From the NCBI GenBank assembly GCA_949383255.1, contig CASJPF010000003.1, forward strand, positions 1-64,000: a stretch of DNA of 64,000 nucleotides, in the 5' to 3' direction. The position numbers and the translations under genes were made by a program. This document shows, in pieces, positions 6,198 through 61,277 of this stretch; position 1 is the stretch's first letter, and each line of letters starts with the position of its first letter. Source of the stretch: Lachnospiraceae bacterium (lineage in GTDB: Bacteria; Bacillota; Clostridia; Lachnospirales; Lachnospiraceae). The notes beneath the pieces were generated by a model. It saw nothing but the letters and a program-made list of their open reading frames with translations. It was not told where the DNA came from and ran no database searches.

Positions 6198-6689
6198 TCT
6201 ATTAAATAAAATAACAATAACTTTAAGCCTTGTTGTTGCTATATAAAAAATATAGGTTGGTATAAGGTAGGATTCCGTAGTCGGCATTGGTGGGAATGTG
6301 TATAACTGGCTATCTTATAGAGTTGTAAGTAACTCTGTTTGCAGAATGTGGGAGAGCAGCACTCAATCGAGTGTATAATCTTGCAGTTACAGGGAATGGA
6401 ATTTGTACAATATTTTTGAAATACAGAAAACAATATAGCCATTAAAAAGGTTTTGACAAAGAAAAGGAAATTATTTCAACGAAACAGTTTAAGAAAGTTT
6501 GGATTGTTATTGCCAGTGTTATTATTACAAGGATCATGTAGGAATTTTGTGAAAAAAAGGAATTTAATGCTGGATTGTAATTTCTTTTTTTGTCATGAAT
6601 ATGATATTTTTGCCATGAATCTGATTTTCAGCTGGAAGAGATTGCAGTATGATTTTACTAAAAATGTAAAAATAAATGGAGGAACAAAA
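6198..6689. other. Leader region upstream of the glycoside phosphorylase genes
   Basis: About 490 bases without a supported gene. Small dyads are present: AGAGTT/AACTCT (6319-6336) and CACTC-aatc-GAGTG (6360-6373), the latter touching a TATAAT at 6374-6379 that could be a -10 box without a clear -35. The phosphorylase frame stays open back to a TTG at 6453, but that extension is not believed. Confidence 0.45.
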
Positions 6690-9462: not shown

Positions 9463-11877
9463 ATGCAGTACGGATATTTTGATGATGAGAAGAGAGAGTA
9501 TGTGATTACCCGACCCGACACCCCTGCTCCGTGGGCAAATTATTTGGGCTCCCCAGAATATGGAGCAATTATTTCTAACAATGCGGGTGGTTATAGTTTT
9601 GCAAAGTCTGGTGCAAACGGCAGAATTTTGCGCTATGTGTTTAATGGATTTGATCAGCCAGGGCGTTATATTTATCTGCGCGACAATGACAGCCAGGATT
9701 ACTGGTCTGCGTCATGGCAGCCAGTTGGAAAAGATTTAGATTCCTACCAGAGCAAATGTCATCATGGGACAGCATATACCAGAATAGAGGCAGATTACAG
9801 TGGTATTCATTCAGAGGCACTTTACTATGTGCCACTTGATAAATCCTATGAAGTGTGGAATTTAAAAGTAACAAATAATTCTGATACAACAAGAAAGTTA
9901 AATATTACTGGATATGCAGAGTTTACAAACAATAATAATTATGAACAGGATCAGGTCAACCTTCAATATTCAATGTTTATTACAAGAACTGCTTTTGAAA
10001 AGGACCGTATTCGCCAGACAATACACGGAAATCTGGATGGACTAGAGGATGGAGAGGAAGTTGACAACAAACTTGCAATTGACCGTTTCTTTGGACTGGC
10101 AGGATCCGAGGTCGCTTCCTACTGTGGAGACCGAGAGAAATTTATTGGACGTTATCACGGTTATGGAAATCCTGTAGGCGTAATTAATGGAGATCTTGGC
10201 GGAGCGTTAAGCTATAACGAAAATGCTTGTGGCGCTCTTACAACTACATTGACACTAACAGCAGGAGAGACAAAAGAAATTGTTTTTATTCTGGGAATGA
10301 AATACAAAGAGGAAGCGGACAAGATTCTTGAGAGTTATCAAAATCCGTCAGAGACCTGCACAAAGGAGCTAGAGGAGCTTATTTCTTACTGGCATGAAAA
10401 ATTGTCCCATTTTCAGGTAAAAACACCAAGCCCAGCATTTGATACAATGATTAATACTTGGAATGCCTACAACTGTTTTATGACTTTTATTTGGTCGCGG
10501 GCTGCTTCTTTTATTTACTGTGGTCTTAGAAATGGTTATGGCTATCGTGATACTGTGCAGGATATTCAGGGGATTATTCACTTAGCACCTGATATGGCAG
10601 TTGAAAAAATCCGGTTTATGCTCTCTGCGCAGGTGGATAATGGCGGCGGACTTCCACTTGTAAAATTTACACATAATCCCGGGCACGAGGATACACCTGA
10701 TGACGCTTCTTATGTGCAGGAGACAGGACACCCAGCATATAGAGCAGATGATGCACTTTGGCTGTTCCCTACCGTTTATAAATATGTGTCAGAATCTGGA
10801 AACTTGGCATTTATAGACGAAGTGATTCCGTTTGCCAACAAGGGCGAAGGAACAGTGTATGAGCATTTAAAGCGCGCAATTGATTTTTCTATGAATCATT
10901 TAGGACCACATGGAATGCCGGCAGGACTTTATGCGGACTGGAATGATTGTCTGCGCCTTGGAAAAGATGGAGAATCCTCCTTTGTAGCGTTTCAATACTA
11001 TTATGCAATGACAATTTTGAAAAAATTTGCTTCTTATAAAAAAGATAACACTTATATAAAATACCTTGATGAGAAACAAGAACAATTGGGCGACTTAATA
11101 CAGAAACTTTGTTGGAATGAGGACCGATTTATTAGAGGGTTTACAGAAAAAGGCGAGGTTATTGGAAAAAGGACAGACAAGGAAGCAAACATGTGGTTGA
11201 ATCCGCAGAGTTGGGCTGTTATCAGTGGATTTGCTACAGATGCGCAAGCAGATTCAGCATTAAATCTGGTAAATGAACGATTAAACACAGAATACGGTGC
11301 AATTCTTATGGATCCTCCTTATCATGTGGATGCGTTTGATGGTGCGCTGGCGGTGATTTACAATGCGGGTGTCAAGGAAAATGCAGGTATTTTCTCACAG
11401 TCTCAGGGGTGGATTATTCTTGCGGAAGCGCTGCGAGGACATGGAGAGCGGGCATTTAATTATTTTATGGAAAATGCGCCTGCTGCCCAGAATGACAGAG
11501 CAGAAATCCGCAGGTTGGAACCCTATTGTTATGGTCAGTTCACTGAGGGAAAAGCAAGTCCGCATTTTGGACGCTCTCACGTGCATTGGCTGACAGGCAC
11601 CGCTTCGACAGTGATGGTTGGGTGTGTCGAGGGAATCCTTGGTATGCGCCCTGACTTTGGTGGATTGAAAATTGCGCCTTCCGTGCCCAAGGATTGGGAT
11701 CACTTTGAAATTGACAAGGACTTTAGAGGAAAGCATCTTCATATTGTTGTCCAAAATCCCGACCACGTTGAGTCTGGCTGCAAATCTTTGAAAGTAAACG
11801 GTCAGGAGATGGAAGGAAATTATATTCCAGCAGACATTCTTAAAGTAGAAAATGAAATAGAGTTGTTTTTGTCATAA
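9463..11877 (+). CDS. Cellobiose phosphorylase, GH94
   Basis: 804 residues, the usual size of cellobiose phosphorylases (about 810). The N-terminus (YGYFDDEKREYVITRPDTP, PWANYLGSPEYGAIISN) is the classical signature, and DWND at 492-495 (ADWNDCLRLG) holds the general-acid Asp. It would convert cellobiose and phosphate to alpha-glucose-1-phosphate plus glucose in the cytoplasm, saving ATP. It follows the first GH94 gene by 43 bases with AAGGAGAG before the ATG, so both are probably one operon. A pair for beta-1,3 and beta-1,4 disaccharides would suit mixed-linkage glucan or laminarin/cellulose breakdown. Confidence 0.88.
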   Translation: MQYGYFDDEKREYVITRPDTPAPWANYLGSPEYGAIISNNAGGYSFAKSGANGRILRYVFNGFDQPGRYIYLRDNDSQDYWSASWQPVGKDLDSYQSKCHHGTAYTRIEADYSGIHSEALYYVPLDKSYEVWNLKVTNNSDTTRKLNITGYAEFTNNNNYEQDQVNLQYSMFITRTAFEKDRIRQTIHGNLDGLEDGEEVDNKLAIDRFFGLAGSEVASYCGDREKFIGRYHGYGNPVGVINGDLGGALSYNENACGALTTTLTLTAGETKEIVFILGMKYKEEADKILESYQNPSETCTKELEELISYWHEKLSHFQVKTPSPAFDTMINTWNAYNCFMTFIWSRAASFIYCGLRNGYGYRDTVQDIQGIIHLAPDMAVEKIRFMLSAQVDNGGGLPLVKFTHNPGHEDTPDDASYVQETGHPAYRADDALWLFPTVYKYVSESGNLAFIDEVIPFANKGEGTVYEHLKRAIDFSMNHLGPHGMPAGLYADWNDCLRLGKDGESSFVAFQYYYAMTILKKFASYKKDNTYIKYLDEKQEQLGDLIQKLCWNEDRFIRGFTEKGEVIGKRTDKEANMWLNPQSWAVISGFATDAQADSALNLVNERLNTEYGAILMDPPYHVDAFDGALAVIYNAGVKENAGIFSQSQGWIILAEALRGHGERAFNYFMENAPAAQNDRAEIRRLEPYCYGQFTEGKASPHFGRSHVHWLTGTASTVMVGCVEGILGMRPDFGGLKIAPSVPKDWDHFEIDKDFRGKHLHIVVQNPDHVESGCKSLKVNGQEMEGNYIPADILKVENEIELFLS

Positions 11878-12035: not shown

Positions 12036-12779
12036 CTACCATGTTTTGTGATAATGACGGTCACGATATTTCTTGGGAGTGAGACCAACATATTTTTCAA
12101 AGGTCTGGATAAAATGACTTTGTGAGGAGAACGCAAGGTAATTAGCAATATCAATCAAACTATAATCGGAGTATTTGAGAAGGTTTTCAGCCTTCTCAAT
12201 TTTTTTCTCGCGGATATAATCGCTGATAGAAACACCAAGATTTTGTTTAAAGAGGCGCGACAGATAGCTTGGTGACAGTGTCGTGTAGTCTGCCAGTTCA
12301 TTGATGGTGATCCGCTCGTTAATATGGCTGTAGATATAATCTGTGCAAAGCATAATCGGTTTGGAAAGAATTGTGTTTTTTTGTAACACAAGCATTTTTC
12401 CTGTGAAGTCAAGCACCATATCTTGATGTAAATCTGCGATAGCTTGAATCGTAGTGCAGGAGTCCATTTTTAAGATATAGAAATCGCTAAGCCGATAAGC
12501 TTGTTCTAGCTCTAGCCCTCCCTCTACACAATGTCGTGTGATAAGAGCGACTGTGACAATAAAATGATATTTTTGATTTGTCAGTGGGTTTTTGGATAAC
12601 ACTCCCATTCCTTCAGGATTGGTAAAATCACCCTGATTTAGATTTTCTCGGACAAATTCCATATCACCGCTTTTAACAGCAGTATAAAAGGAATATTCTT
12701 CCTCCATTGGACGATGATATGCTTCTGATTCATTATCATACAGCTCTCGTCGATACCATTCGCTTCTTAAACTGTTCAT
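12036..12779 (-). CDS. AraC-family transcriptional regulator
   Basis: 247 residues. The last 100 hold the two HTH motifs of AraC regulators (ITINELADYTTLSPSYLSRLFKQ and SLIDIANYLAFSSQSHFIQTF, ending GLTPKKYRDR). The N-terminal half is a helical domain without an obvious cupin motif, as in many Firmicutes sugar regulators. It is divergently transcribed from the sugar ABC importer across a 197-base AT-rich gap, so it most likely controls the importer and perhaps the phosphorylases in response to an imported oligosaccharide. Effector unknown. Confidence 0.9.
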   Translation of the reverse strand: MNSLRSEWYRRELYDNESEAYHRPMEEEYSFYTAVKSGDMEFVRENLNQGDFTNPEGMGVLSKNPLTNQKYHFIVTVALITRHCVEGGLELEQAYRLSDFYILKMDSCTTIQAIADLHQDMVLDFTGKMLVLQKNTILSKPIMLCTDYIYSHINERITINELADYTTLSPSYLSRLFKQNLGVSISDYIREKKIEKAENLLKYSDYSLIDIANYLAFSSQSHFIQTFEKYVGLTPKKYRDRHYHKTW

Positions 12780-12855
12780 AGTTTTCCTCCTTCATAACCA
12801 AAAATTTAATTCTTTTTTCCACATTTTTTAACATAATTATAATTATGTCATGATT

Positions 12856-12883
12856 TTGATATTTTTACAACTGATTTTATATA
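12856..12883 (+). promoter_or_regulatory. Candidate promoter of the sugar importer operon
   Basis: TTGATA (12856-12861), a 16-base spacer and TATATA (12878-12883) lie in the AT-rich gap between the AraC gene and the binding-protein gene. The match is moderate; no operator repeat for the AraC protein was recognised. Confidence 0.35.
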
Positions 12884-12976
12884 AGAAATATACAATGTGC
12901 ACTATAATCAGTCTTGTAAGTTCGATGTAACGATTTTGTTACCTAAAAAAATAATAGACCAAGGGAGGAATTTAAG

Positions 12977-14434
12977 ATGAAGAAAAAAATCATTAGCAGT
13001 TTATTGGCAGTGTCTATGATTATGACAGCGCTTACAGGATGCGGGGGAGGCGATAAGCCGTCCAATGATGCACAGGGGGCAGCCACATCATCCGGCAATG
13101 AAACAGCGGCGCCGTCATCATCTGGCAATGAGGATGCAGCAGAACCAGCACCTGCAACGGACGAAGGAAAAGTCATTAATATTTATAGTTTTAATGATGA
13201 GCTTCGCACACGTATCACGGCAGTTTATCCTGAGATTGAGAGCACGTCAGAAGACGGGACTTCCTCAACCTTAAAGGATGGAACAGAGATTCGTTGGATT
13301 ATCAATCCAAATCAAGATGGTGTATATCAGGATAAGCTTGATGAGGCGCTTGGTAATCAGTTGACCGCAGCCGATGACGATAAGGTTGATATTTTTGCGG
13401 CTGAGCTGGATTACATTGTCAAGTACACGGATGCAGATATTGACGCTGCAATGCCACTTGAGTCTTTGGGAATCAATCCTGATACCGATCTGGCAGATCA
13501 GTTTGAATTTACAAAGACTGTTGCAAGCGATCAGAATGGTGTGATGAGAGCTTCCACATGGCAGGCATGTCCGGGTGTTCTAGTGTATCGCCGTGACATT
13601 GCAAAGGAAGTTTTTGGCACAGATGATCCTGTAGAAATTGGTAAAAAGACGCAAGACTGGGATACGATGAAAGCGACAGCAGAGGAGTTGAAAGCAAAGG
13701 GATATTATGCATTCTCAAGCTATGCAGATACATTCCGTACATATAACAATAGTATGGAAGAAGCATGGGTAGCACCTGGAGAGACGGTTATTCGAGTTGA
13801 CCAGAAGATTCTTGACTGGGTTGAGGATTCTAAAGAGTGGAAGGAAGCAGGCTACTTTGACCCTACTGTAAAGGGGCAGTGGAATTCAGACTGGTTTACA
13901 GCAATGAGTTCTAGCGCTAAGGTATTTGCATTCTTGTTCCCAGCATGGGGAATTGACACACAGTTGAAACCAAACTGGGATGGTGAAGAAGGCGCATGGG
14001 CTGTTACAAATGCACCATTGTCATATAATTGGGGCGGAACATTCGTTCTTGCGGCAGAAGGAACAGACAATCCACAGCATGTAAAGGATATTCTTCTTGC
14101 ATTGACAGCAAACAAGGACAATCTGACAAAGATTTCAAAAGAGTATGCAGATTTTACAAATGCGAAATCTGTTATGCAGGCAGCAGCACAAGATGACGCT
14201 TTTGCATCAGATTTTCTGGGTGGGCAAAATCCGTACACTTACTTTACACCTGGCGCAGACGCAATCAAGATGGCTCCACTGTCAGCATATGATCAGGGAT
14301 GTGTAGAATTGATTCAGAATACATTTGGTGATTATCTTCAGGATCAGATTGACTATGACAAGGCAAAAGAAAACTTTGAGACAGCAATTAGAGAGCGCTA
14401 TCCTGAAATTACAGAGATTCAGTGGCCAGAATAA
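12977..14434 (+). CDS. Carbohydrate ABC transporter substrate-binding lipoprotein (family 1)
   Basis: A 485-residue extracytoplasmic binding protein. A lysine-rich signal peptide ends in a lipobox (ALTGC, lipidated C22), followed by a Ser/Gly/Ala-rich linker and then the two-lobed family-1 fold (segments such as PNQDGVYQDKLDEAL and GYYAFSSYADTF). It should deliver oligosaccharides to the two permeases directly downstream. AAGGGAGG precedes the ATG. No ATPase is encoded here, as is common in Firmicutes where a shared MsmK-type ATPase energises many importers. A hairpin follows the stop. Confidence 0.92.
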   Translation: MKKKIISSLLAVSMIMTALTGCGGGDKPSNDAQGAATSSGNETAAPSSSGNEDAAEPAPATDEGKVINIYSFNDELRTRITAVYPEIESTSEDGTSSTLKDGTEIRWIINPNQDGVYQDKLDEALGNQLTAADDDKVDIFAAELDYIVKYTDADIDAAMPLESLGINPDTDLADQFEFTKTVASDQNGVMRASTWQACPGVLVYRRDIAKEVFGTDDPVEIGKKTQDWDTMKATAEELKAKGYYAFSSYADTFRTYNNSMEEAWVAPGETVIRVDQKILDWVEDSKEWKEAGYFDPTVKGQWNSDWFTAMSSSAKVFAFLFPAWGIDTQLKPNWDGEEGAWAVTNAPLSYNWGGTFVLAAEGTDNPQHVKDILLALTANKDNLTKISKEYADFTNAKSVMQAAAQDDAFASDFLGGQNPYTYFTPGADAIKMAPLSAYDQGCVELIQNTFGDYLQDQIDYDKAKENFETAIRERYPEITEIQWPE

Positions 14435-14442
14435 AACCATTG

Positions 14443-14468
14443 ACTGCGGTGCATTTGTGCACCGCAGT
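14443..14468 (+). terminator. Hairpin between binding-protein and permease genes
   Basis: ACTGCGGTGCA, a 4-base loop and TGCACCGCAGT make a perfect 11-bp stem without a T tract. In binding-protein operons such hairpins usually protect the upstream message or cause partial termination, so the binding protein is made in excess over the permeases. Confidence 0.75.
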
Positions 14469-14494
14469 ATTTAGAAAGAAGGGAGAGATAGCTT

Positions 14495-15445
14495 ATGAAA
14501 CAAAAACGTAAAAAGATAGACTACTCGAAGTGGGGATATATTTTTATTCTTCCGTTTTTTGCATGTTTCTTTATTTTTTCGCTCATCCCATTGATCGATA
14601 CAATCCGATACAGCTTTTTTGAATATTATCGTTCTGGATTGAAGCAAATTGGTCCTAATTTTATCGGGATGGAAAATTATGCCAGTCTGCTGCAATCCGA
14701 TATGTTAAAATATGCAGGAAATACTTTGATTTTGTGGCTGATTGGCTTTGTTCCGCAAATTGTTATCGCACTTTTGCTCGCTTCTTGGTTTGTAGATGCG
14801 CGGCTTAAGATTCACGGCCAGCAGTTCTTTAAGGTAGTAATTTATCTGCCCAATCTAATTATGGCTTCTGCGTTTGCAATGTTGTTCTTCACATTGTTTT
14901 CAAACAAGGGACCTATCAATTCTATTCTGTTGTCTATGGGTCTAACAGAAAGTCCAATTGATTTTATGGGGACTGTATTTGGCACAAGGTCATTGATTGG
15001 CGTAATGAACTTTTTAATGTGGTTTGGAAATACGACAATTATGCTGATGGCGGCAATTATGGGTATTAGCCCAGATATCTTTGAGGCGTCAGAGATTGAT
15101 GGCTGTAATAGTATACAGAGATTTTTCTACATAACCCTTCCAATGATTCGTCCAATTCTTGCATACACATTAATTACTTCAATTATTGGTGGTCTGCAAA
15201 TGTTTGATGTACCACAGATTTTAACGAATGGTCAAGGTAGTCCAGACAGAACATCTACAACATTGATTATGTTCCTCAACAATCATTTAAAGAGCAAGAA
15301 TTATGGTATGGCGGGTGCGTTGTCTGTTTATCTGTTTATCGTGAGCGGTATCTTATGCTTTATTGTATATAAGATAACCAATGATGATGATCCAGATGGT
15401 TCTAAGGCAGCTGCAAAGAAGAGAAAAAGGATGGAAAGGAGATAA
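14495..15445 (+). CDS. Sugar ABC transporter permease, MalF/UgpA type
   Basis: 316-residue inner-membrane protein with about six helices. The first is at 16-38 (YIFILPFFACFFIFSLIPL). The cytoplasmic EAA loop that docks to the ATPase is recognisable around EASEIDGCNSIQRFFYITLPM (about 206-226). Second gene of the importer operon, with GAAGGGAGAG before the ATG. The C-terminus ends in a Lys/Arg-rich tail. The second permease begins 4 bases after its stop. Confidence 0.92.
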   Translation: MKQKRKKIDYSKWGYIFILPFFACFFIFSLIPLIDTIRYSFFEYYRSGLKQIGPNFIGMENYASLLQSDMLKYAGNTLILWLIGFVPQIVIALLLASWFVDARLKIHGQQFFKVVIYLPNLIMASAFAMLFFTLFSNKGPINSILLSMGLTESPIDFMGTVFGTRSLIGVMNFLMWFGNTTIMLMAAIMGISPDIFEASEIDGCNSIQRFFYITLPMIRPILAYTLITSIIGGLQMFDVPQILTNGQGSPDRTSTTLIMFLNNHLKSKNYGMAGALSVYLFIVSGILCFIVYKITNDDDPDGSKAAAKKRKRMERR

Positions 15446-15449
15446 GATA

Positions 15450-16295
15450 ATGAAATCAAAAGGATATAATAGTTTTCGTACTATTTTTGCACATGTATTA
15501 CTTGTTATACTGTCATTTATGTGTCTGTTTTTCTTCTATATCCTGTTTGTCAATTCGACACGTTCCCATGCGGATTTACAGAAAGGGTTTTCTGCATTGC
15601 CCGGGAGCCATTTTTTGACAAATTTAAAAAATGTGACAAATGATGGAACCTTTCCGATGGTGCGCGGTATTATAAACAGTTTGATTGTCTCTGGCTGCTC
15701 AGCGGCAATCTGTACTTATTTTTCCGCTTTGACTGCATATGGACTTTATGCCTATGATTTTAAATTAAAAAAGATTGCATTTACATTTATTATGGCGATT
15801 CTTGTAATGCCAACGCAAGTTACAGCAATGGGATTTCTGCGTTTGATAACAAAGATGGGTATGAATGATTCTCTGCTTCCTCTGATTATTCCTTCAATTG
15901 CATCACCCTCTGTATTCTATTTTATGTACAGTTATTTACAGTCATCGCTTCCACTCTCATTAGTTGAGGCGGCAAGAATTGATGGCTCCAAGGAATTTCG
16001 TACTTATAACCAGATTGTTCTCCCAATTATGAAACCGGCGATAGCAGTGCAGGCAATCTTTACCTTTGTGGGATCTTGGAATAATTACTTCGTTCCAGCG
16101 CTGGTAATCCAGTCAAAGGATAAGATGACCGTGCCAATTCTTATCGCGCTTCTTCGAGGAGCTGATTATATGAATCGTGATATGGGAAAAATATACATGA
16201 TGATTATGGTGGCAATTGTTCCAATTATTCTTGTATATTTGATTCTCTCAAAGTATATTATCGCAGGTGTGACACTCGGCGGTGTCAAAGGATAA
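15450..16295 (+). CDS. Sugar ABC transporter permease, MalG/UgpE type
   Basis: 281 residues with six predicted helices and the EAA loop VEAARIDGSKEFRTYNQIVLP (about 172-192). It forms the channel with the preceding permease. I start at the ATG at 15450, just after GGAAAGGAGATAAG, rather than at an earlier in-frame start inside the previous gene. Last of the three importer genes; a hairpin follows. Confidence 0.92.
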   Translation: MKSKGYNSFRTIFAHVLLVILSFMCLFFFYILFVNSTRSHADLQKGFSALPGSHFLTNLKNVTNDGTFPMVRGIINSLIVSGCSAAICTYFSALTAYGLYAYDFKLKKIAFTFIMAILVMPTQVTAMGFLRLITKMGMNDSLLPLIIPSIASPSVFYFMYSYLQSSLPLSLVEAARIDGSKEFRTYNQIVLPIMKPAIAVQAIFTFVGSWNNYFVPALVIQSKDKMTVPILIALLRGADYMNRDMGKIYMMIMVAIVPIILVYLILSKYIIAGVTLGGVKG

Positions 16296-16315
16296 ATCTG
16301 TGCAATGAAATGAAC

Positions 16316-16341
16316 GCCCCAACGGCCTTGGCTGTTGGGGT
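16316..16341 (+). terminator. Hairpin after the importer permeases
   Basis: GCCCCAACgGCC-tt-GGCtGTTGGGG forms a strong stem with one internal mismatch. The following TGTCTTAAAAA has only a short T run, so it may be a leaky terminator or a processing hairpin before the next lipoprotein gene. Confidence 0.6.
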
Positions 16342-16374
16342 GTCTTAAAAATAAAAAGAATCAGGAGGTGTGTT

Positions 16375-17343
16375 ATGGTGCGGAAAAAATACAGGATGCT
16401 TTTGGCGGTGGCAGTGCTTGTATCGTTTGGAACCGGGTGTCAGTCAAAAGATGCAAATAGAAATACACAAATCTATTACTCCGCGATTGAAGACGGGGAT
16501 TATTATGAGGGATGGGCAAGTCAACTGCAGGAGCAGGCAGCGGCATGTGGTGCTTCCTTTGATGTAGGATACGCCCAGAACTCTGTGGAGACACAAGATG
16601 CGCAGATAAAGAGCGCCGTTGCAAGTGGATGCGATGTGTTTCTGTGTGGTCCAGTCTCGCCAGACACAGCGACGGAGATCAAGGCAGCGGCAGGGAACAC
16701 ACCGATTGTCTTTATTAACAATGCGCCGGAGGATAAGGTATTGGAGAAGAATCGCTATATTTATGTGGCATCGGATGAATATATGGCAGGGCAATATCAG
16801 GCAGAATATATTCTGGAAAAGTTTAGCCAAAAACAAGAAATCAATATTGTAGTGCTGAAGGGACCAAAGGATGCATCAGGCGCGGTTGGCAGAACAAAAG
16901 GACTCAAACAAACGCTGAAAGCCAGTGGAAAGAAAATTAATTATGTTTTTGAGGATTATGCTGATTGGAATAATGAGAAGGCACAAGAATTGATGGAGTT
17001 GTTTTTAAGAACAGGGCAGCCTGTTGACTGTGTGGCGGCAAACAATGATGATATGGCGCTTGGTGGTCTAGCGGCATTTGAGCAGGCAGGATTTAACACA
17101 GATGAAATATTGTTTTTGGGGGTAGATGCTTCTGCGGGCGGTTGTCAGGCAATTGTAGAGGGAAGAATGGATTTCACAGTCTATCAGCCCACTACAGCAC
17201 AGATTACTTCCGCTGTGGAGGCGGCGGATAGACTGGCTTCGGGTAAGTCGATTGCAGATATGGAAGGTGCATCGGAGGATGGGAAATATATTTTGATACC
17301 ATTTGAGAAAGTGGATAGCCAAAATGTGACACAGTACCAATAG
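16375..17343 (+). CDS. Sugar-binding lipoprotein, type 1 periplasmic binding fold (RbsB-like)
   Basis: 322 residues. The signal peptide ends in a lipobox (FGTGC, lipid on C22) and is followed by a type 1 periplasmic-binding-protein fold as in ribose/galactose binding proteins (QIYYSAIEDGDYYEGW, SGCDVFLCGPVSPDTA, VAANNDDMALGGL). No cognate ABC permease or ATPase follows. Instead a chemoreceptor starts 30 bases downstream, so this may be a binding protein dedicated to chemotaxis or one that serves an importer elsewhere. AGGAGGTG lies 5 bases before the ATG. Confidence 0.88.
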   Translation: MVRKKYRMLLAVAVLVSFGTGCQSKDANRNTQIYYSAIEDGDYYEGWASQLQEQAAACGASFDVGYAQNSVETQDAQIKSAVASGCDVFLCGPVSPDTATEIKAAAGNTPIVFINNAPEDKVLEKNRYIYVASDEYMAGQYQAEYILEKFSQKQEINIVVLKGPKDASGAVGRTKGLKQTLKASGKKINYVFEDYADWNNEKAQELMELFLRTGQPVDCVAANNDDMALGGLAAFEQAGFNTDEILFLGVDASAGGCQAIVEGRMDFTVYQPTTAQITSAVEAADRLASGKSIADMEGASEDGKYILIPFEKVDSQNVTQYQ

Positions 17344-17373
17344 GCTTGTATAGGAAAGCGTGAGGAACAAATT

Positions 17374-19872
17374 ATGACAGGGAAGACAAAATTTATATCC
17401 ATAAAAGTAAAGCTCTTGGGGATTATCCTGCCTGTGATTATCGTTATTATGACAGTTCTCACAGGGTTGTCTTATTATGTATCAAAAAATGTAATTCAGT
17501 CGAATGCACATGATTTGTTACAGACATCAGTGGAGAGCCAAGCTTCTGAGATGGAGGCATGGCTGGAGAGGAATCTTGTGTCTGCCGGTGTCGCAAAACA
17601 GGCTGTTGAGGAAATGGAGTTTGATGATGCGCAGTTACAGGATTTTTTAGATTCTTATTACAATTATGACAATAACTATTCTGAGGGATTTTATATTGCA
17701 GATATGGACGGAACGCTTCTTCGGGCAAAGCCTGTGAAAAGTGTCGCGCTAAGAGAGCCAGACGCAGAGGGAAATTATTTAAATAATGGAAATTTTGCGG
17801 TTGCGGAGAGCCTGACAGACGATAGGGATTGGATGTTTTTAACGGCATTGGAAGGTGAGGCACAAGCACAGATTCAGGAAAACGAGGTTTCTTTTGACAT
17901 CACCAATGAGGGGACAGTGGATTACAGTGTACAGTTTGTGCAGCCGAATGTTCCTGTGAAAAAGGACGCAGTGTATACAGTCCGTTTTGACGCCTATGCG
18001 GATGCGGATCGGACAATGAAAGTCAGTGTCACAGCGCCAGATAGGGAATATAAGCGCTATCTTGAGGATACTGTTGTTTCTCTGACCACGGAAAAGCAGA
18101 CATATTCTTATGAGTTTACTATGACAGATTATGATGATGCGAATGCACGCATGGAATTTAATCTTGGTGCGGCGGGTTCGACAGCAGGTGTGAAGGTTGG
18201 CAACGTGTCGATTGTCATGAGTAAACAGCCACGTTCTACAGAAAATATTGAGAGTGTGTCAAAGACAGATGTGACGCAGACAGAGTGGTTCCGTGATGGA
18301 CTGACTCGGGTGAATGTGGGATTTACCAACGCTTATACAAATGAAAATGGAATACCAGTCATCAGTGCCTGTGGGATGTTGCGTACAGCATCAAACAATG
18401 TACGTGTTATCTCGATGGATTTGTCATTGGATAAGGTTAGTGTCTATGTCAATAGTTTTGTAAAGATGGAGAACGCCGAAGCGTTTTTGGTAAATGCAAA
18501 TGATAATACAATTCTTGCGTCGCGCGATAAAACAATGATTTCCAAGAAAATGGACGAGGTGGACAATGTTTTTATAAAAGATATTGCAGCTAAAATTTCT
18601 CAGGGGGAGATGGAACTGACAGAAATAGATGGAAACATTACTGTTTTTCAAGAAATTTCGGGTACGGATTGGGTGCTGGTATCCTATGTTCCAGCGGCTA
18701 TCGTATATCGTGATTTAAATGGTATTAGAAATATTATGATTCTTTTTGGTGTTGCTTCTGTGTTGGCGTTAACTATATTGATTGAACGAATTATCCATGT
18801 GGTGATTCATCCAGTGCGTGGTCTAACAGAAGTAATTAGGAATATGACAGGAGGTAACTTTACTTCTTACAATGCTGTGAAAAGCAGTGATGAAATTGGC
18901 GTGATGAGTCGGTGTGTTGAACAGTTTATTGTCACAATGCGTGGTATGATTGCCTCCATAGATAATGTATCACACACACTGCACGCTCAGGCGGATAATA
19001 GCAAGAATGTGTCCAGTCAGATGTTTGATGCATCAAAAAATCAGAATCAATCAATGAAGGATTTAAACACAACAGTCGAACAGCTTTCTATCTCCGTCAA
19101 TGAAATTGCACAGAGCGCAACAACACTGGCTTCTCTTGTGGCAGAGACCAAGGAGGACGGTGATGGCATGAATGGCAGGATGAAGGAGACCGTCAGCATT
19201 TCTCAGAAGGGGAAAGAGGTTATGCAAGGTGTGGATATGGCCATGCAAAGCATTGATAATTCTGTGCGTCAATTGCAGCGTGCAATTGATGAGGTAGGAA
19301 ATGTGTCAGGTGAAATTACCAATATTACAAGAGTAATTGGCGATATTGCAGATGAGACCAATCTGTTGTCGCTAAACGCTTCCATTGAGGCAGCGCGCGC
19401 GGGCACAGCAGGAAAAGGATTCACTGTGGTAGCGTTGGAAATTGGCAAACTGGCGCAGACAAGCATGGAGTCAGTGAAACATATTGATAAGCTTGTTTTA
19501 GAGATACAAGCACTAATTGGAGATGTTATCGAGCAGGCAAACGACAGTGTGGGGAATATTAACAACAGTAGTGCATTGATTGGAAATGCGGTGACAACAT
19601 ATGACACAATTTTTGAGAATATTGTCGTGGTTGGAGAACTGACACAGCAGATGATACAGAAGGTGGAGCAGGTAGAGGATGTCGCGCGAAATGTAGCAGC
19701 AATCTCGGAGGAGCAAGCAGCAAGTTCACAGGAAATACTTGGCTCATCGGATATTTTGGTAGAACAGGCGGATAATCTGATGACTAATAGTGAGATTGTG
19801 GCAAAGGAATCCGAGGAGCTAACCACATCAGCTGAGGCGTTGGAGTCACAAATTCGGATGTTTCAAGTATAG
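17374..19872 (+). CDS. Methyl-accepting chemotaxis protein with a CBM4/9-like module inside its dCache sensor
   Basis: 832 residues. Membrane helix 1 is at about 10-33. The extracellular sensor begins as a dCache domain (about 35-126, [12 protein letters not shown]) and resumes at about 283-450 ([12 protein letters not shown] ... [13 protein letters not shown]). Between them (about 127-282) sits an inserted jelly-roll-like module starting [13 protein letters not shown]. It closely matches the first carbohydrate-binding module of the GH16 protein encoded next; both share [13 protein letters not shown] and EFNLG in the same order. Membrane helix 2 (about 452-472), HAMP and the signalling hairpin with tip sequence [18 protein letters not shown] complete the receptor. 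It probably steers swimming toward beta-glucan or its fragments; the ligand is inferred. Confidence 0.9.
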
Positions 19873-20029: not shown

Positions 20030-23000
20030 ATGCAGGTGAAAAAGAAAGTACATAGGTCAATAAAGACATTGATTCTAACAGTTGTATTTGTACTTCTCGT
20101 GGGAGGAGGAGGGATAGCCACCTGGGCGGAAAACAATATCTCTATTAATATCTCCAGCCATACAATCAATATTGGTGACGAGGAGAATCCGTTGATACTC
20201 TGGATCAATAATTTGCCAGAAGGCAAAAAGACCAAATGGGTCTCTTGGAATGAAAATATAGCAACTGTGGATCAAGAAGGGGAAAAAGGTGTAGTGACAG
20301 CACTTCGCAAAGGAAAAACCATTATTTCATCAGGAATTGGTTTTCCGCGCGAGACATGTCTTGTCACGGTGGTGGAACCAAGTATTAAACTAAATAAAAC
20401 ATCGGCTGTTATTTATTGTGCGCCAACGAAAGAGAATACAAAAGCTGTTTCTAGTGGTGATACAATACAGTTGAAGGCGACGGTAAAGGGCGCGGATAAA
20501 AATACACTGTGGAGTAGTAGCAACAAGGCAGTTGCCACTGTGGATACAACAGGAAAAGTGACTTCTGTTTCCGCAGGAACGGCGAATATTACCGCGACGG
20601 CAAATGGAAAATCAACCGTTTGCAAAGTGACTGTGAAGGATAATGCGCTCTCGCTCAACCTTAATGAAATGCAATTAAGCACAAAAGGTACAGGAAGTTC
20701 TATAAAACTTGTTCCAGTGATTGTCGGTGCAACTAAAAAAGTGACATGGACAACATCAGATGCAACGATTGCAACCGTAAAGGGGGGTAAGGTCACAGGA
20801 AAGAAAACTGGAGAGGCAGATATCACTGCGACAGCAAACGGTGTTTCAGCAAAATGCCATGTCAAGGTAGAGGAAGGCTTAATCTCTATTAATGAGGAGC
20901 ATGTGCAGCTTTATATGACAAAAAATAATACTGCTGAGACAAAGCAATTGAAAACAAACGCCTCAAAAACGGATACTGTTGTGTGGAGTAGCAGCGATGA
21001 GAAGATTGCGACAGTGGACAGTAAAGGTATGGTGTTGGCAAAGGGTGCAGGAACTGCTATAATTACTGCAGTATGCGATGGCAAAGCAGATACCTGTATG
21101 GTCAAAGTGACAGATACAGCAACATCAATTGCGGAGAGAATTGTTCATTTAAAGACAAAAGGTACTGCAAAGACTTATACATTGGATTGTCGCGTAACAG
21201 GACGAAAAAATGCTGTAAAATGGAAAAGTTCTGATACAAAAGTGGCTTCTATAAGCAAGGGAAAGATTACAGCAAAGAAGCCTGGAACTGCGATTATTAC
21301 AGCGGAGGCAAACGGCGTCACGGATAAGGTTCTTGTGACAGTACAAGAATTTACACCCTCCATAACCTTAAATCAAAGTGAGTATATGCTTTACACAAAG
21401 GGAAAAGGAAATACAGTTACAATAAAGGCAGTTGTGGATGGAACAAATAAAAAGGTAGTATGGGACAGCAGTAACAGAGATGTTGCAGAAGTAAATGCAA
21501 AGGGCAAAGTCACTGCAAAAAAAGCGGGTAGGACTCTAATAACAGCAAAGGCAAATGATGTGACTGCCAAGTGTTGGGTTCGCGTGAAAGAATCTAAAGT
21601 AACGCTTGAGAAGAAGTATTATTTGTTAAACGTTGGTGATACAGAAGTATTAGCGGCGGATGTTATCGGTGCAAGTCAATCCATAACATACAAGTCATCA
21701 AACACCAAAGCAGTTGGGATTAAAAAGGGTGTTATTACAGCCAAAAAGGATGGAAGTGCTACAATCACTGTGACAGCAAATGGTATTAAAGAAGAATGTT
21801 ACGTTGTGGTGACAGATTGCAAAGAACATGATTGGAAATTGGCAGAAGGTGCGGAGAAAGAGAAGGAAGATATTGTGGCGACTTGTGAGGAAAGAGGACT
21901 TACCACATATATCTGTACCAAATGTAACGGAAAAAAACAGGAAATTGTCGAGCCGTTAGGACATCAGTTTGGGAGGTGGACAGTGACAGTTAAGGCGACA
22001 GAAAATGCAGCAGGTTTGGAAAGACAGATTTGTAAACGATGTGATGTAGAGAATACCAGAAGTATCCCTGCAAAAGGGAAAAGCGATATTGCGGAGGCAT
22101 ATAAGCTTGTCTGGGAAGATGAATTTGACGGGGATAAACTCAATCTCAATGACTGGAATTTTGAGTACCATGAACCCGGCTGGGTGAATGCAGAGTTACA
22201 AGAGTATGTGGATTCTGAGAAAAATACTTATGTCAAAGATGGAAAACTTTACATTCAGGCACTAAAAGAAATAAGAGACGGAAAAGCCTATTACACATCA
22301 GGAAGAATTAACACAAAAGGAAAGAAGAATTATCAGTATGGAAGATTTGAAGTAAGAGCAAAAGTTCCAAGCGGAAAAGGATTTTTGCCTGCCTTTTGGA
22401 TGATGCCAGAAGATGAAAGTTATTATGGACAGTGGCCAAAGTGTGGTGAGATTGATGTGATGGAGGTTCATGGAAGTGCGCTTTCCACAACATATGGAAC
22501 CCTTCATTTCGGGGAACCACATACACAGAAGCAAGGCAGTTATACCTTGGCAGAAGAACAGCCAAATTTTGGACAGGATTTCCATATCTTTGCGTGTGAG
22601 TGGGATCCTGACGAGTTTCGATTCTATGTGGATGATGTACTGTTTTATACAGTCAACGATTGGTTTACCCAAAAACCTGGATTTGGGAAAGTAGCTTATC
22701 CTGCACCATATGACCAGCCATTTTATATGATACTGAATTTGGCTGTCGGCGGTAGTTGGGTAGGATACCCAGATGAGGACGATAAGTTTGAAGAAAATGC
22801 ACAGTTTGTTATTGATTATGTTCGGGTATATCAAAAAGATAATTATGATACAGACGTCGACAAGCCAGAAAATGAAGTAAAGCTTAGAGATCCAGACGAG
22901 ACAGGAAATTATATTGTCAATGGCGATTTTGCAAAAGTGGAGGATTTAACCAAGGAAGACTCCAACTGGCAGATACTTTTTGCTAATGGCGGCGCTGCAA

Positions 23001-25852
23001 CAGCAGAAATATTTGATAATGCATTGCATATTACATCAACAAATGCTGGCACAGTAAACTATGGCGTGCAGGTAGTGCAGGCAAATCTGCCAATGGAAAA
23101 TGGTGCAAAGTATAAGCTTACTTATGATGCGTATGCAGAGGAAGCACGCACTATGATTACGGGAATATCCGCTCCTGATAGGGGATATATCCGCTACTTG
23201 GAGGATAAAACAGTAAATTTGACCACCGAGAAACAGACATATGAACATATTTTTGATATGACTGCGGACAGTGATGCAAATGGCAGAGTAGAATTTAATC
23301 TTGGAAATCAAGGTTCGATTGCGAAAGTTCATATTAGCAATGTGAGACTAGCGAAGGAAGGCGATGCTGAAAAAGAGGAAAAAGGCGTTTTACCTGATGG
23401 CAATTATGTTTATAATGGACAATTTAATGAAGGCAATGAGCCAGGAAGACTGCGCCTTGCGTATTGGGATTGGGATATTAGACAATGTAAAGGTGCAAGT
23501 GTATCCGTTACAAATGACAGCATACGCGAATTAAAGGTTGTTGTGCCAGAGTCTGTAAATGGGCTGGACAATGTATCTGTATATCAAGAGGACATTGCGA
23601 TTTCTGGCAAAAAGAAATATATTCTCAGTTTTGATGCCTATGCAGATGGAAATAAGACCATACAAACAACTGTGGCAGGAAAAACTTTTGACAGTGCATT
23701 GACAACAGATAAAACAAGCTATAAATACGAGTTTGAGACACCAGCGGATTTGAGTGGAAGCGAGATTTGCTTCTTACTTGGAAATGCAGGTACAACATAT
23801 ATTGACAATGTGTGTGTCCGGGAAGATTGTATGATTGTCAATGGAGACTTTTCTAACGGATTACTGGGTTATGAAGTATATGTGAATGACGCGGCAAAAG
23901 TTCCGGACTATATCGTAGATTCGTTAAATGAAAAAGATGCATTTTCTATGGATATTACGGACACAGGTGATCAGGATTGGTATATTCAATTAAAACAGAG
24001 TGGCATTAAGCTTGAAAAAGACAAGTGGTATAAATTCTCATTTGATGCCAAGTCAACAGTAGACAGAGAGATTATGTATGCGCTGCAAAGAGATGGCACA
24101 AGTGATGATAACTGGACACCTTACTCTGGGCAGCCAAAGGCGGCGTTGACAGCAGGATTCCAGACATTTGAAAAAGTATTTCAAATGAAATCAGATACAG
24201 ATGCAAATACAATTCTTAGTATCTCTATGGGAGCTGTTGGTGGAAAACAAATTGCGCAAAAACACACAATTGTAATTGATAATATTAATTTGGAAGAGAC
24301 AGAAGCTCAGGAGGAGCCAGTAGAACCACCAGTAGAGCCAGGAGAGAATATGATTCAGAATGGTGACTTTGAAGCGAGTGATGCGCACTGGGTAAATGCA
24401 GTGACACCTCCAGGTGAAGCTGAGGTAAGTTTTGCAGAGGGGAAAGCAGTTTATCATATATCCAATGTTGGAACAGAGGATTGGAATGTACAGTTAAAAC
24501 ATGCTGAGCTTTTAACACTGGAACAAGGTGCATCTTATCAAGTTCAAGTGAGGATAAAGTCTACTGAGTCAAGAACAGTAAAATATGCGTTCTTAAATCC
24601 GGCATATGATTGGTATGGGGGAGAAGATCTTATATTAAGTGCCAATGAGGAAAAAGAAGTGGATTTTACATTAAATGTAGAAAAGCCTACAGATAATGAG
24701 ATTACATTTGTTATCTCAATGGGGCAGATTAAAGATAACGAGACCCAAGAATTTATTCCTACACCAGCATCAACAATTGAAATTGATGATATTCGTGTTG
24801 TGAAAATCAGCGGAGGTGGAGATACGCCAGAGAATCCAGACGAGCCTATAACAGAGAATATGATTCAAAATGGCGATTTTGCAAATGAGAAGGAAAACTG
24901 GACAGATTATGTGGATAGCGCAGCGACAGCAACAACTGATTTTATACAAAATAAAGCGCGATATGAAATCACGAAAGCTGGAACCGCAGACTGGAATGTG
25001 CAGTTAAAACAGGAAGGGCTTACAATGGAAGCAGGCGCATCATACAAACTAGAAATGAAAATAGGAGCTTCCATAGACAGAGATGTGAAAGTGGCATTTA
25101 TGGGAGCAGGTGATGCATGGCATGGAGGAACAGATATTCGTCTGACAAAAGATAAGTTAAAGTCTGTAAGCCGTATTATTAAACTGGAAGACAAAGAGAT
25201 CACAGGAACAATAGCATTCCAGATTTCGCTAGGTCAGCCAGACGGCGCTGAACTTGCAGCACATGCAATAGAGATCTCAGATATTCGTCTCACAAAGGTT
25301 GAGAGTGGAGCAGATGCAGGTGAGGAGACAGAGACAGACCAAATTATTACCCCGCCAGAGAATAAGGAAGGAGAATCCAATCCAGAAGATACCAACATGC
25401 AAGACAAAAAGCTAGATTCCGAGGAGGATTCTAATTTAGAAACAGATACAACAAGTGATGCGGAGGAATCAGAGTCTGCTACGCAAGAAGAAGAGACAGA
25501 ATCTACAACAGAAGAACCTTCAGAGACAGAAGAGACAGAATCTACAACAGAAGAACCTTCAGAGACAGAAGAGACAGAATCTACAACAGAAGAAGTAGAG
25601 AGTACAGAAGAATCTTCAGAGACAGAAGAGACAGAATCTACAACAGAAGAACCTTCAGAGACAGAGGAAACAGAATCTACAGAAGAATCTTTGGAGACAG
25701 AAGAATCAGAGAATACAGAAGAATCTTTAGAGACAGAAGAGATAGAATCTACAACAGAAGAAGAATCTTTGGAGACAGAAGAATCAGAGAACACAGAAAA
25801 AACTTCAGAGATAGAAGAATCAAAGCGTACAAAAGAATCTTCAAACAAATAA
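20030..25852 (+). CDS. Secreted multidomain GH16 endo-beta-glucanase with BIG2 array and five CBM4/9-like modules
   Basis: 1940 residues. A signal peptide (about 1-33) is followed by seven BIG2-type Ig-like domains (about 34-595). A short Cys-rich region with CxxC pairs (about 600-685) precedes a GH16 catalytic domain (about 691-937) with the retaining motif EIDVME (E807 nucleophile, D809, E812 acid/base). Five CBM4/9-like domains follow (about 953-1105, 1124-1264, 1267-1424, 1439-1594, 1609-1757; several begin with NGDF), then an acidic Glu/Thr/Ser repeat tail. GH16 with such CBMs usually means laminarinase or lichenase. No LPxTG or other anchor is visible at the C-terminus. AAGGAAA lies just before the ATG. 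It supplies oligosaccharides to the importer and phosphorylases upstream. Confidence 0.93.
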   Translation: MQVKKKVHRSIKTLILTVVFVLLVGGGGIATWAENNISINISSHTINIGDEENPLILWINNLPEGKKTKWVSWNENIATVDQEGEKGVVTALRKGKTIISSGIGFPRETCLVTVVEPSIKLNKTSAVIYCAPTKENTKAVSSGDTIQLKATVKGADKNTLWSSSNKAVATVDTTGKVTSVSAGTANITATANGKSTVCKVTVKDNALSLNLNEMQLSTKGTGSSIKLVPVIVGATKKVTWTTSDATIATVKGGKVTGKKTGEADITATANGVSAKCHVKVEEGLISINEEHVQLYMTKNNTAETKQLKTNASKTDTVVWSSSDEKIATVDSKGMVLAKGAGTAIITAVCDGKADTCMVKVTDTATSIAERIVHLKTKGTAKTYTLDCRVTGRKNAVKWKSSDTKVASISKGKITAKKPGTAIITAEANGVTDKVLVTVQEFTPSITLNQSEYMLYTKGKGNTVTIKAVVDGTNKKVVWDSSNRDVAEVNAKGKVTAKKAGRTLITAKANDVTAKCWVRVKESKVTLEKKYYLLNVGDTEVLAADVIGASQSITYKSSNTKAVGIKKGVITAKKDGSATITVTANGIKEECYVVVTDCKEHDWKLAEGAEKEKEDIVATCEERGLTTYICTKCNGKKQEIVEPLGHQFGRWTVTVKATENAAGLERQICKRCDVENTRSIPAKGKSDIAEAYKLVWEDEFDGDKLNLNDWNFEYHEPGWVNAELQEYVDSEKNTYVKDGKLYIQALKEIRDGKAYYTSGRINTKGKKNYQYGRFEVRAKVPSGKGFLPAFWMMPEDESYYGQWPKCGEIDVMEVHGSALSTTYGTLHFGEPHTQKQGSYTLAEEQPNFGQDFHIFACEWDPDEFRFYVDDVLFYTVNDWFTQKPGFGKVAYPAPYDQPFYMILNLAVGGSWVGYPDEDDKFEENAQFVIDYVRVYQKDNYDTDVDKPENEVKLRDPDETGNYIVNGDFAKVEDLTKEDSNWQILFANGGAATAEIFDNALHITSTNAGTVNYGVQVVQANLPMENGAKYKLTYDAYAEEARTMITGISAPDRGYIRYLEDKTVNLTTEKQTYEHIFDMTADSDANGRVEFNLGNQGSIAKVHISNVRLAKEGDAEKEEKGVLPDGNYVYNGQFNEGNEPGRLRLAYWDWDIRQCKGASVSVTNDSIRELKVVVPESVNGLDNVSVYQEDIAISGKKKYILSFDAYADGNKTIQTTVAGKTFDSALTTDKTSYKYEFETPADLSGSEICFLLGNAGTTYIDNVCVREDCMIVNGDFSNGLLGYEVYVNDAAKVPDYIVDSLNEKDAFSMDITDTGDQDWYIQLKQSGIKLEKDKWYKFSFDAKSTVDREIMYALQRDGTSDDNWTPYSGQPKAALTAGFQTFEKVFQMKSDTDANTILSISMGAVGGKQIAQKHTIVIDNINLEETEAQEEPVEPPVEPGENMIQNGDFEASDAHWVNAVTPPGEAEVSFAEGKAVYHISNVGTEDWNVQLKHAELLTLEQGASYQVQVRIKSTESRTVKYAFLNPAYDWYGGEDLILSANEEKEVDFTLNVEKPTDNEITFVISMGQIKDNETQEFIPTPASTIEIDDIRVVKISGGGDTPENPDEPITENMIQNGDFANEKENWTDYVDSAATATTDFIQNKARYEITKAGTADWNVQLKQEGLTMEAGASYKLEMKIGASIDRDVKVAFMGAGDAWHGGTDIRLTKDKLKSVSRIIKLEDKEITGTIAFQISLGQPDGAELAAHAIEISDIRLTKVESGADAGEETETDQIITPPENKEGESNPEDTNMQDKKLDSEEDSNLETDTTSDAEESESATQEEETESTTEEPSETEETESTTEEPSETEETESTTEEVESTEESSETEETESTTEEPSETEETESTEESLETEESENTEESLETEEIESTTEEESLETEESENTEKTSEIEESKRTKESSNK
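25485..25800 (+). repeat. Tandem 36-39 base repeats coding an acidic Thr/Glu/Ser tail
   Basis: Units such as GAGACAGAAGAGACAGAATC followed by TACAACAGAAGAACCTTCA recur about eight times with slight decay, coding ETEETESTTEEPS-like blocks. Such in-frame tandem repeats can change in number by slippage, altering the length of the stalk. Confidence 0.85.
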
Positions 25853-36297: not shown

Positions 36298-36906
36298 TTG
36301 AAAAGAAAGAAGTATAGTGCAGGAGCTGTAAAGTTTTCCTTGTGGTTTGTGGAATTTCGCAAAGAAGTTCAGCTCTTGGCGCAGGGGCGAACATTTGATG
36401 AAATAAAGGCGCTTAGCATTGAGCAAAATATATTTGGCGCATCGACGCCAGCCAGAGCAGCAATGATTCAATCTACATTAACTGCGAGGATTAAAAACAT
36501 GGATTCAAGTTTCTACCCTCTTTTTATGGATAGCGATGTAGCTACACAAAAATTATATGCACTGACAGGAAGCTTTGCCCATGATACCTTATTTTTTGAT
36601 TTTATGTATGAGGTTGTCAGAGAAAAAATGGTTATTGGCATAAACACGCTTACGAACGCAGATATTCGTATATTTTTTAAGAACAAAAAGACACAAGATG
36701 AAATTGTAGCAAAATGGACAGAGCAGACGCTGCAAAGGCTTTGCATAAACTATAAGGCACAACTTTATGAGGCAGGTATCCTTGACAACAAGACAAGAAA
36801 TACAGAACGTCAGATATTAAAGCCGATTCTTGATCCAGTATTAAAGCACTGGCTAGAAGACTATGGATATGGACAGGTAGTCAAAGCCTTAGAAGGGATA
36901 CGATAG
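36298..36906 (+). CDS. brxA: BrxA, BREX inner-membrane-protein-like (DUF1819) component
   Basis: 202 residues of the DUF1819/BrxA family (KYSAGAVKFSLWFVEFRKEVQLL, ARIKNMDSSFYPLFM, DPVLKHWLEDYGYGQVVKALEG). BrxA is a small helical, DNA-binding BREX subunit. I use the TTG at 36298 because GAGGAA lies 8 bases upstream and the family begins right there. First gene of the BREX set; brxB follows 103 bases later. Confidence 0.88.
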   Translation: MKRKKYSAGAVKFSLWFVEFRKEVQLLAQGRTFDEIKALSIEQNIFGASTPARAAMIQSTLTARIKNMDSSFYPLFMDSDVATQKLYALTGSFAHDTLFFDFMYEVVREKMVIGINTLTNADIRIFFKNKKTQDEIVAKWTEQTLQRLCINYKAQLYEAGILDNKTRNTERQILKPILDPVLKHWLEDYGYGQVVKALEGIR

Positions 36907-36952
36907 ATTCGGTTGAAAATGTCTAAAAGGAATAAAATGACAAAGAAAGGAG

Positions 36953-36989
36953 CGGCTTATAAGCCGTCAGCTTAGAGAACAAAAGTTCT
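36953..36989 (+). other. Two small dyads between brxA and brxB
   Basis: CGGCTTATAAGCCG (36953-36966) is a perfect 14-base palindrome and AGAAC-aaaa-GTTCT (36976-36989) is a hairpin. A possible operator or an mRNA-processing structure; no T run follows, so termination is unlikely. Confidence 0.4.
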
Positions 36990-37009
36990 AAAGGCTTGGG
37001 AATTAGATA

Positions 37010-37585: not shown

Positions 37586-37604
37586 GAATGTACAAGGGAA
37601 ATAT

Positions 37605-37773: not shown

Positions 37774-37846
37774 GGCTTAATACCTACGACAGGAAGCCGA
37801 GGACAAAACTGTTACAATTTGGACAAAGCAAGAATGGAGGATTAAA

Positions 37847-41476: not shown

Positions 41477-41498
41477 AGATGGTGAGGAGGTTTTTTTG

Positions 41499-45835: not shown

Positions 45836-45876
45836 CCAATACTTGATATGTTTCCAATATTGAAAAGGGAAAATAT

Positions 45877-58827: not shown

Positions 58828-58865
58828 TGAGAATGCAACCATATATGGCACAAAGGAAGAGATTT

Positions 58866-61256: not shown

Positions 61257-61277
61257 GAATACGGGGATTGGATTGTT

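Follow-up and report, generated by a model that had tools for sequence, protein, structure and literature searches.

A CBM4-type module inserted in the dCache sensor of a Lachnospiraceae chemoreceptor: a candidate beta-glucan receptor beside a GH16 enzyme gene

The mechanism by which bacteria are steered to polysaccharides too large for uptake is largely open. Marine bacteria show strong taxis to laminarin and alginate, the sensing step offered in the available text being a possible SusD-type binding protein (PMC10700628). In the pectin chemotaxis of Sphingomonas sp. A1 (pectin-binding protein SPH1118) and in the MBP/Tar system of E. coli, taxis is described as proceeding via a binding protein thought to contact a methyl-accepting chemotaxis protein (MCP). 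The RsgI anti-sigma factors of Clostridium thermocellum are described as membrane sensors whose external part can be a carbohydrate-binding module (CBM; CBM3 or CBM42) that reports extracellular polysaccharide, and CBM4 modules, the N- and C-termini of which lie close together, are described in a loop of another domain in xylanases of the Xyn10C type (glycoside hydrolase family GH10) and in EngU (GH148) (PMC7848910, PMC5725463). As far as these sources describe them, CBM-bearing membrane sensors, CBM4 insertion and polysaccharide taxis via a binding protein are therefore already known. The present analysis concerns a chemoreceptor gene (17374..19872, plus strand, 832 amino acids) that carries a CBM4-type module within its dCache sensor, located in a stretch of 64,000 nucleotides (hereafter the window) of a Lachnospiraceae bacterium (assembly GCA_949383255.1, contig CASJPF010000003.1, positions 1 to 64,000). 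It suggests that a gut bacterium may find its way to dietary beta-glucan through direct contact between the glucan and a chemoreceptor.

The receptor was characterized from the list of open reading frames, Pfam searches and alignments. Its HAMP and MCP signalling domains (residues 473-832; 18790..19869, plus strand) were assigned by Pfam: MCPsignal (PF00015) matches at residues 609-788 with 105.7 bits (cut-off 34.6), and HAMP at residues 473-513, slightly below cut-off. Among five relatives scanned (L-numbers designate the compared loci), HAMP was above cut-off in L062, L065 and L048, below it in L059 and not listed in L054. Hydropathy peaks at residues ~12-34 and ~451-478 indicate two membrane segments, so that the stretch between them should be extracellular. 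This stretch comprises, all on the plus strand, a first part of the dCache sensor (residues 35-118; 17476..17727), delimited by hydropathy, by alignment to module-less paralogs and by the profile matches of two module-less relatives; the CBM4-type module (residues ~119-284; 17728..18225); a variable linker (residues 285-299; 18226..18270); and the remainder of the sensor (residues 300-452; 18271..18729), which starts at a W-F helix. The module gives a CBM_4_9 match (PF02018) over its core at residues 134-265, with 54.3 bits for a cut-off of 25.9, and this family was also above cut-off in three of three module-bearing relatives scanned (L054, L059 and L062). For the sensor itself, residues 301-415 align with the sensor of PctA of Pseudomonas aeruginosa (PDB 5ltx, E=8.8e-5), and an MCP-like_PDC_1 fragment at residues 285-354 is below cut-off; the PDC_1 profile is just above cut-off in a paralog from the same genome, and dCache_1 spans 237 of 240 profile positions in the module-less receptor of L065, yet stays below cut-off.

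Comparison with module-less relatives placed the bounds of the insert at residue ~118 and residue ~300, the insert ending before T-Q-T-E-W-F. The insertion point follows a G-[TK]-L hairpin and precedes the W-F helix, which aligns with R-P-W-Y of PctA; we take this site to be the loop leading into the distal ligand pocket, by presumed equivalence with the pocket of PctA. The same-genome paralog (G000:C1, 666 residues, module-less) has 9 residues where the receptor has ~180, with flank identities of 51, 48 and 54% in three parts, and all of the 27 aligned module-less relatives have 6-24 residues at this position. The original prediction that a CBM4-type module interrupts the dCache sensor is thus borne out by the profile match and by these relatives, which also exclude the reading of an ordinary dCache subdomain misread as a CBM.

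The counterpart of the module is found in a secreted GH16 beta-glucanase (20030..25852, plus strand, 1940 amino acids), in which Pfam recognizes seven Big_2 matches, the GH16 domain and five CBM_4_9 matches. Residues 102-280 of the receptor align by BLASTP with residues 934-1107 of the enzyme (88/180 identical, 49%, E=1e-44), that is, with its first CBM4 module (residues 948-1111; 22871..23362, plus strand; envelope taken from the near-identical L052 protein). The earlier statement that the two modules align, including the motifs quoted for it, therefore holds. The four other CBM copies of the enzyme match the receptor module with E from 3e-9 to 5e-6, and among solved structures the receptor module is closest to the CBM4 of Thermotoga laminarinase 16A (1gui, E=1.6e-6), described in a review as binding mid-chain glucose units of glucan. 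In the genome concerned (4.38 Mb, 86% complete, 7% contamination), there are six CBM_4_9 matches, namely that of the receptor and the five of the GH16 enzyme. Compared as DNA, the two modules are identical at 178/274 positions (65%) of their main alignment, to which a second, short piece of 52 nt is added, so the sharing of the module is old.

A search through GTDB genome contigs retrieved 23 loci, of which 13 (L052-L064) match the sensor from residues 1-6 to 338-339, thus flanks and module together, in receptors of 830-833 residues counted from the aligned start; the remaining 10 (L065-L074) match within GH16 enzymes. L052, from a metagenome-assembled genome (MAG, 'Lachnospiraceae bacterium isolate bin44o'), is a near relative distinct from the contig of the window: 59 of 21017 bases differ between the two, as does a single one of the 832 receptor residues. 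It represents the window in the comparison set, which consists of the 13 named-contig receptors and 3 from other genera (16 in all). Receptors with flanks and module were present in 9/38 genomes of the genus of the window, in 4/397 genomes of a family sample (4/334 genera, that of the window included) and in 1/392 genomes of an order sample, the one being that of the window; scoring in the family and order samples was limited to five candidates per genome. Module-bearing receptors are accordingly known from at least four genera. An assembly chimera is excluded, the same architecture occurring in 13 named contigs, 4 of them without a MAG label (A4, IMSAGC_011, 1XD21-87 and 3-1). The locus L065 (MAG of an uncultured Eubacterium sp.) has a syntenic module-less receptor (L065:3577-5649) in the same kind of operon, and this receptor and the same-genome paralog provide natural controls for the module.

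The origin of the module was examined with two trees, a smaller one of 13 receptor modules, 36 chosen enzyme modules and 3 outgroups, and a larger one of 16 receptor modules and 48 enzyme modules that passed score and length limits. In both, the receptor modules are nested in the family of modules that follow a GH16 domain (support 100/97 in the smaller tree, 99/94 in the larger), which favours the direction from enzyme to receptor. They form one side of a branch in the smaller tree (98/88) and have a single origin at 56/89 in the larger; relying on this weaker figure, a single origin is favoured, weakly. The smaller tree groups them with the enzymes of L065, L062, L051 and L067 (97/86), and the larger gives no resolved nearest enzyme lineage. 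The enzyme module of the window type (L052) stands apart from them, elsewhere in the enzyme-module family, in both trees, and falls in the larger one in a clade of 15 enzyme rows with zero receptors (96/93). It had been proposed that the module was copied from the enzyme into the receptor, or the reverse. The part of this proposal that stands is a transfer, the module having probably moved from enzyme to receptor; the part that does not is the partner, since the trees indicate that the present neighbouring enzyme is not the donor lineage. A recent duplication from the neighbouring gene is excluded by this placement together with the 65% DNA identity over 274 nt. In the simplest history, the ancestor would have obtained its module from the GH16 enzyme of its operon, and the enzyme would later have been exchanged in the lineage of the window; the enzyme module of L065 is 66% identical to the receptor module of the window, and the window's own enzyme module ~49-51%.

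Phylogeny of the flanking sensor sequences, from which 12 distant rows of the 27 module-less ones were removed beforehand in order to avoid long branches, groups the module-less receptor of L065 with the 16 module-bearing receptors (100/100). These 16 receptors form one side of a branch in 0% of 200 bootstrap trees (19% when 13 receptors are used), and keeping them together is not rejected by the approximately unbiased test (p=0.193). The insertion-site loop of L065 has 24 residues and is acidic, the other 26 module-less rows having 6-10 residues; such a loop would fit either a remnant of module loss or a loop that preceded insertion.

Constraint was estimated as the ratio of nonsynonymous to synonymous rates (dN/dS) in 10 chosen pairs among the 13 named receptors, 8 divergent and 2 near-identical. 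For the module, the 8 divergent pairs gave ratios of 0.05-0.11; the two near-identical pairs, which have few changes, gave 0.27 and 0.36. The flanking sensor parts gave 0.06-0.15 in divergent pairs (one value not computable), and the first flank of the near-identical pair L057-L058 gave 1.30, on very few changes. For the linker (residues 285-299), the ratio was computable in 7 divergent pairs and ranged over 0.26-0.88. These ratios are rough, because dS of the module exceeds 1 in all 8 divergent pairs; in such pairs they indicate purifying selection on the module, comparable to that on its flanks, and much less of it on the linker. Five residues of the module (W153, Y184, Q187, Y226 and Y229) are identical in 16/16 receptors. 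Among the 48 enzyme modules, Q187 is present in 48/48, Y229 in 47/48 and Y184 in 39/48 (9 having H), and position 226 is Y, W or F in all. A Y-x-x-Q motif and a later Y are assigned to ligand binding in descriptions of other CBM4s. By analogy with these, the ligand-contact residues would be present in the receptor module as Y184, Q187, Y226 and Y229, and we consider it likely that the module binds beta-glucan.

The genes around the receptor bear on the nature of this glucan. The GH16 domain of the window enzyme is closest to GH16 laminarinases. Upstream are two GH94 phosphorylase genes on the plus strand: one (6453..9419, its true start probably further in) has as closest solved relative the laminaribiose phosphorylase 6ggy (E=1.2e-293, query 6687-9416), and the other (9463..11877) matches over its whole length, with 1474 bits, 8bou, which was deposited under the name of a chitobiose phosphorylase and is described as BpGH94MLG of Blautia producta. 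They are followed by an AraC-type regulator of the locus, identified by Pfam (12036..12779, minus strand), and by an ATP-binding cassette importer (12977..16295, plus strand) made of a presumed binding protein (12977-14434) and two permeases recognized by Pfam as BPD_transp_1 (14495-15445 and 15381-16295); the gene order of the importer is the same in relatives. The presumed binding protein had zero Pfam matches at E up to 1 and is named by its position, at which Blautia producta has its mixed-linkage-glucan binding protein. The cluster of Blautia producta is described as comprising a GH16 enzyme with four CBM4s, a GH94 enzyme, an AraC regulator, a binding protein and transporters, all genes except the regulator being induced 4-5-fold by barley beta-glucan; its GH16 enzyme also cleaves laminarin, and the organism is described as being without growth on laminarin. 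Since the gene set of the window parallels this cluster, with the addition of a laminaribiose-phosphorylase-like GH94 that would use up laminaribiose, the theme of the locus is likely mixed-linkage beta-glucan, with beta-1,3-glucan as the alternative. Mixed-linkage beta-glucan is at least as well indicated by the locus as laminarin is, and the parallel with 8bou and Blautia producta weakens the case for laminarin as the only substrate. In 14/16 module-bearing receptor loci, the fetched stretch carries a GH16 or GH94 gene belonging to this set. A terminator scan gave 11 sites for 8.5 expected, and both plus-strand sites between 16295 and 20030 are inside reading frames.

Two observations were made on the GH16 genes themselves. 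The end of the window enzyme (25400-25850) encodes a long Glu/Ser/Thr-rich repeated tail in which no cell-wall sorting motif was evident by eye, and in Lachnospiraceae bacterium A4 (L054:12540-19269) the gene is in two overlapping frames (12540-13382 and 13366-19269), perhaps through a frameshift.

The gene preceding the receptor (SBP2; 16375..17343, plus strand) encodes an MglB/RbsB-like sugar-binding protein, assigned by Pfam (Peripla_BP_4) and by its resemblance to MglB and RbsB, with an N-terminus that looks by eye like a lipoprotein signal. An MglB-like gene is directly upstream of the receptor in 16/16 module-bearing loci and in L065, and directly downstream of it in the 22/22 module-less loci examined, which are a chosen part of the module-less matches and include L048:6666-9664, L049 and L118-L137; it thus adjoins the receptor in 39/39 loci examined, with or without the module. 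In E. coli, MglB and RbsB feed the Trg receptor. Since the partner is constant whether or not the module is present, sugar sensing through it was probably a property of the ancestral receptor, and by analogy with Trg this suggests that the receptor family senses a sugar-loaded binding protein. The module would then be an addition to a working sensor, the receptor and the MglB-like gene being a fixed pair. In Lachnospiraceae relatives the module-less receptor and its MglB-like gene likewise form a fixed sensory pair, the ligand of which seems worth assigning.

Taken together, a two-input beta-glucan receptor is the most likely reading of these sequences. We consider it rather likely that a receptor of a binding-protein/receptor pair was recruited to a (mixed-linkage) beta-glucan locus and was then given a CBM4 from the GH16 enzyme family. 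The receptor probably mediates taxis to beta-glucan or its fragments, and there is a good chance that SBP2 acts as its co-sensor. From its place on the outer side of the receptor, the module would grip chains of soluble beta-glucan, or larger oligosaccharides that the GH16 enzyme releases; the linkers being short, it probably stays in the cell-wall zone, which makes soluble glucan or fragments likelier ligands than the bulk insoluble polymer. Glucan binding could then move the loop that adjoins the distal Cache pocket; alternatively, the module could hold glucan near SBP2 and so raise the local concentration of sugar-loaded SBP2 at the receptor; by either route, CheA activity would change and cells would accumulate near beta-glucan. 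That the signal is gated by the module itself, whose role would otherwise be limited to concentrating ligand, has in our view somewhat less than an even chance. The most specific version is held only tentatively: a direct polysaccharide chemoreceptor in which beta-glucan chains would themselves be the signal, by virtue of the enzyme-derived CBM4 adjoining the distal Cache pocket, and which would integrate polymer (through the CBM) and released sugar (through SBP2), steering gut Lachnospiraceae to beta-glucan under degradation. Architecture, nesting, constraint and gene context are seen in the sequences; binding and signalling by the module are proposed from them. MCPs, the CheW domain and flagellin were the chemotaxis and flagellar families searched in the genome, which has 5 CheW-domain matches, of which two are in frames of CheA size (726-729 residues), and 10 flagellin matches.

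Several points weigh against this reading. The SBP2 partner exists with and without it, so that the main signal may bypass the module entirely. The enzyme module occurs without a module-bearing receptor in a further 5/38 genomes of the genus and, as the operon of L065 is also module-less in its receptor, the module is dispensable for the locus. L056 (12.7 kb) and L061 (a contig of 5.5 kb) carry the module-bearing receptor without a GH16 or GH94 gene on the fetched stretch. Where the module sits with respect to the pocket is deduced from alignment, the dCache profiles being below cut-off in the window protein. Finally, CBM4s are described as varying in specificity, that of EngU binding barley glucan and not laminarin.

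The best surviving rival follows from the first of these points: sugar-loaded SBP2 would dock on the dCache sensor and signal, and the CBM would only tether glucan or add no signal. The constant MglB-like neighbour, the resemblance of SBP2 to the proteins that feed Trg, the position of the SBP2 gene between a permease of another importer and the receptor, and the module-less receptor kept by L065 in the same kind of operon all speak for it; a useless passenger would, on the other hand, hardly be kept in 16 receptors of at least four genera, under purifying selection and with its ligand residues intact, and we regard this explanation as unlikely, if a serious one. It is improbable that the module is an adhesin-like anchor, placing the receptor or the cell on fibre or wall with a ligand that has no effect on CheA. 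The CBMs of secreted enzymes do anchor to their substrate, and the linker behind the module is weakly constrained; receptors, however, are membrane-embedded arrays within the wall zone and poorly suited to cell adhesion, and the insertion is in a sensor loop next to the W-F helix, not at a terminus. Least probable of all is a module that no longer binds sugar and serves instead to shape the dCache fold or dimer, or to bind a different ligand: a position at the pocket loop could serve structure alone, but four ligand residues (Y184, Q187, Y226 and Y229) are invariant across the receptors and the family exists in module-less form (27 rows). We retain the two-input beta-glucan receptor as the most likely reading.

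Elsewhere in the window, a BREX-type (bacteriophage exclusion) defence island was observed at 36298-56051, with matches to BrxA, BrxB, BrxC, PglX and PglZ in order. Between PglX and PglZ are a protein of 1182 amino acids (45877-49425), with a Pfam HD-CE domain and no PADLOC match, and a PtuA-like ATPase (49690-50862). Two tandem genes at 58827-63995 probably serve a surface polymer; both combine a family-2 glycosyltransferase domain with a Glyphos_transf (CDP-glycerol glycerophosphotransferase) domain.

Compared with described systems, the receptor resembles dCache chemoreceptors such as PctA (5ltx) in its probable Cache sensor, HAMP and MCP signalling domain, and differs from PctA in that a CBM4 module of ~165 residues interrupts the distal Cache subdomain. 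In addition, PctA has an Arg two residues ahead of its W-Y, and the present receptor has Thr at that position. We assume this Arg to have a role in the recognition of amino-acid ligands by PctA; an amino-acid receptor is accordingly not suggested by the replacement. The literature, consulted mostly as titles and abstract openings and without a search for CBM-receptor fusions outside this receptor family, gave no CBM-bearing chemoreceptor, and the sole 'CBM' in the available text of PMC8547431 is a strain name. The mixed-linkage locus of Blautia producta (bp1313-bp1318) shares with the window the GH16 enzyme with CBM4s, the GH94 phosphorylase (8bou), the AraC regulator, the binding protein and the transporters; as described, it names no chemoreceptor, second MglB-like protein or laminaribiose phosphorylase, and the word 'chemotaxis' is absent from the main text of its description. 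In the SPH1118 and MBP/Tar systems, sensing is indirect, by a soluble protein, and the receptor itself has no polysaccharide-binding module in the descriptions available; SBP2 may add the same indirect route here. A sensor with a built-in module from the family of the matching hydrolase offers a concrete and testable candidate for the steering of bacteria to polysaccharides, in which an enzyme module would be reused for signalling beside the enzyme genes, linking fibre degradation with motility in Lachnospiraceae. RsgI, as described, controls transcription by proteolysis and not motility, and its CBM is C-terminal, behind a trans-wall region, whereas that of the receptor is an insert of a Cache domain. 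In Xyn10C-type xylanases and EngU, the domain that hosts the CBM4 is a TIM-barrel hydrolase; here, the host is the sensor of a chemoreceptor.

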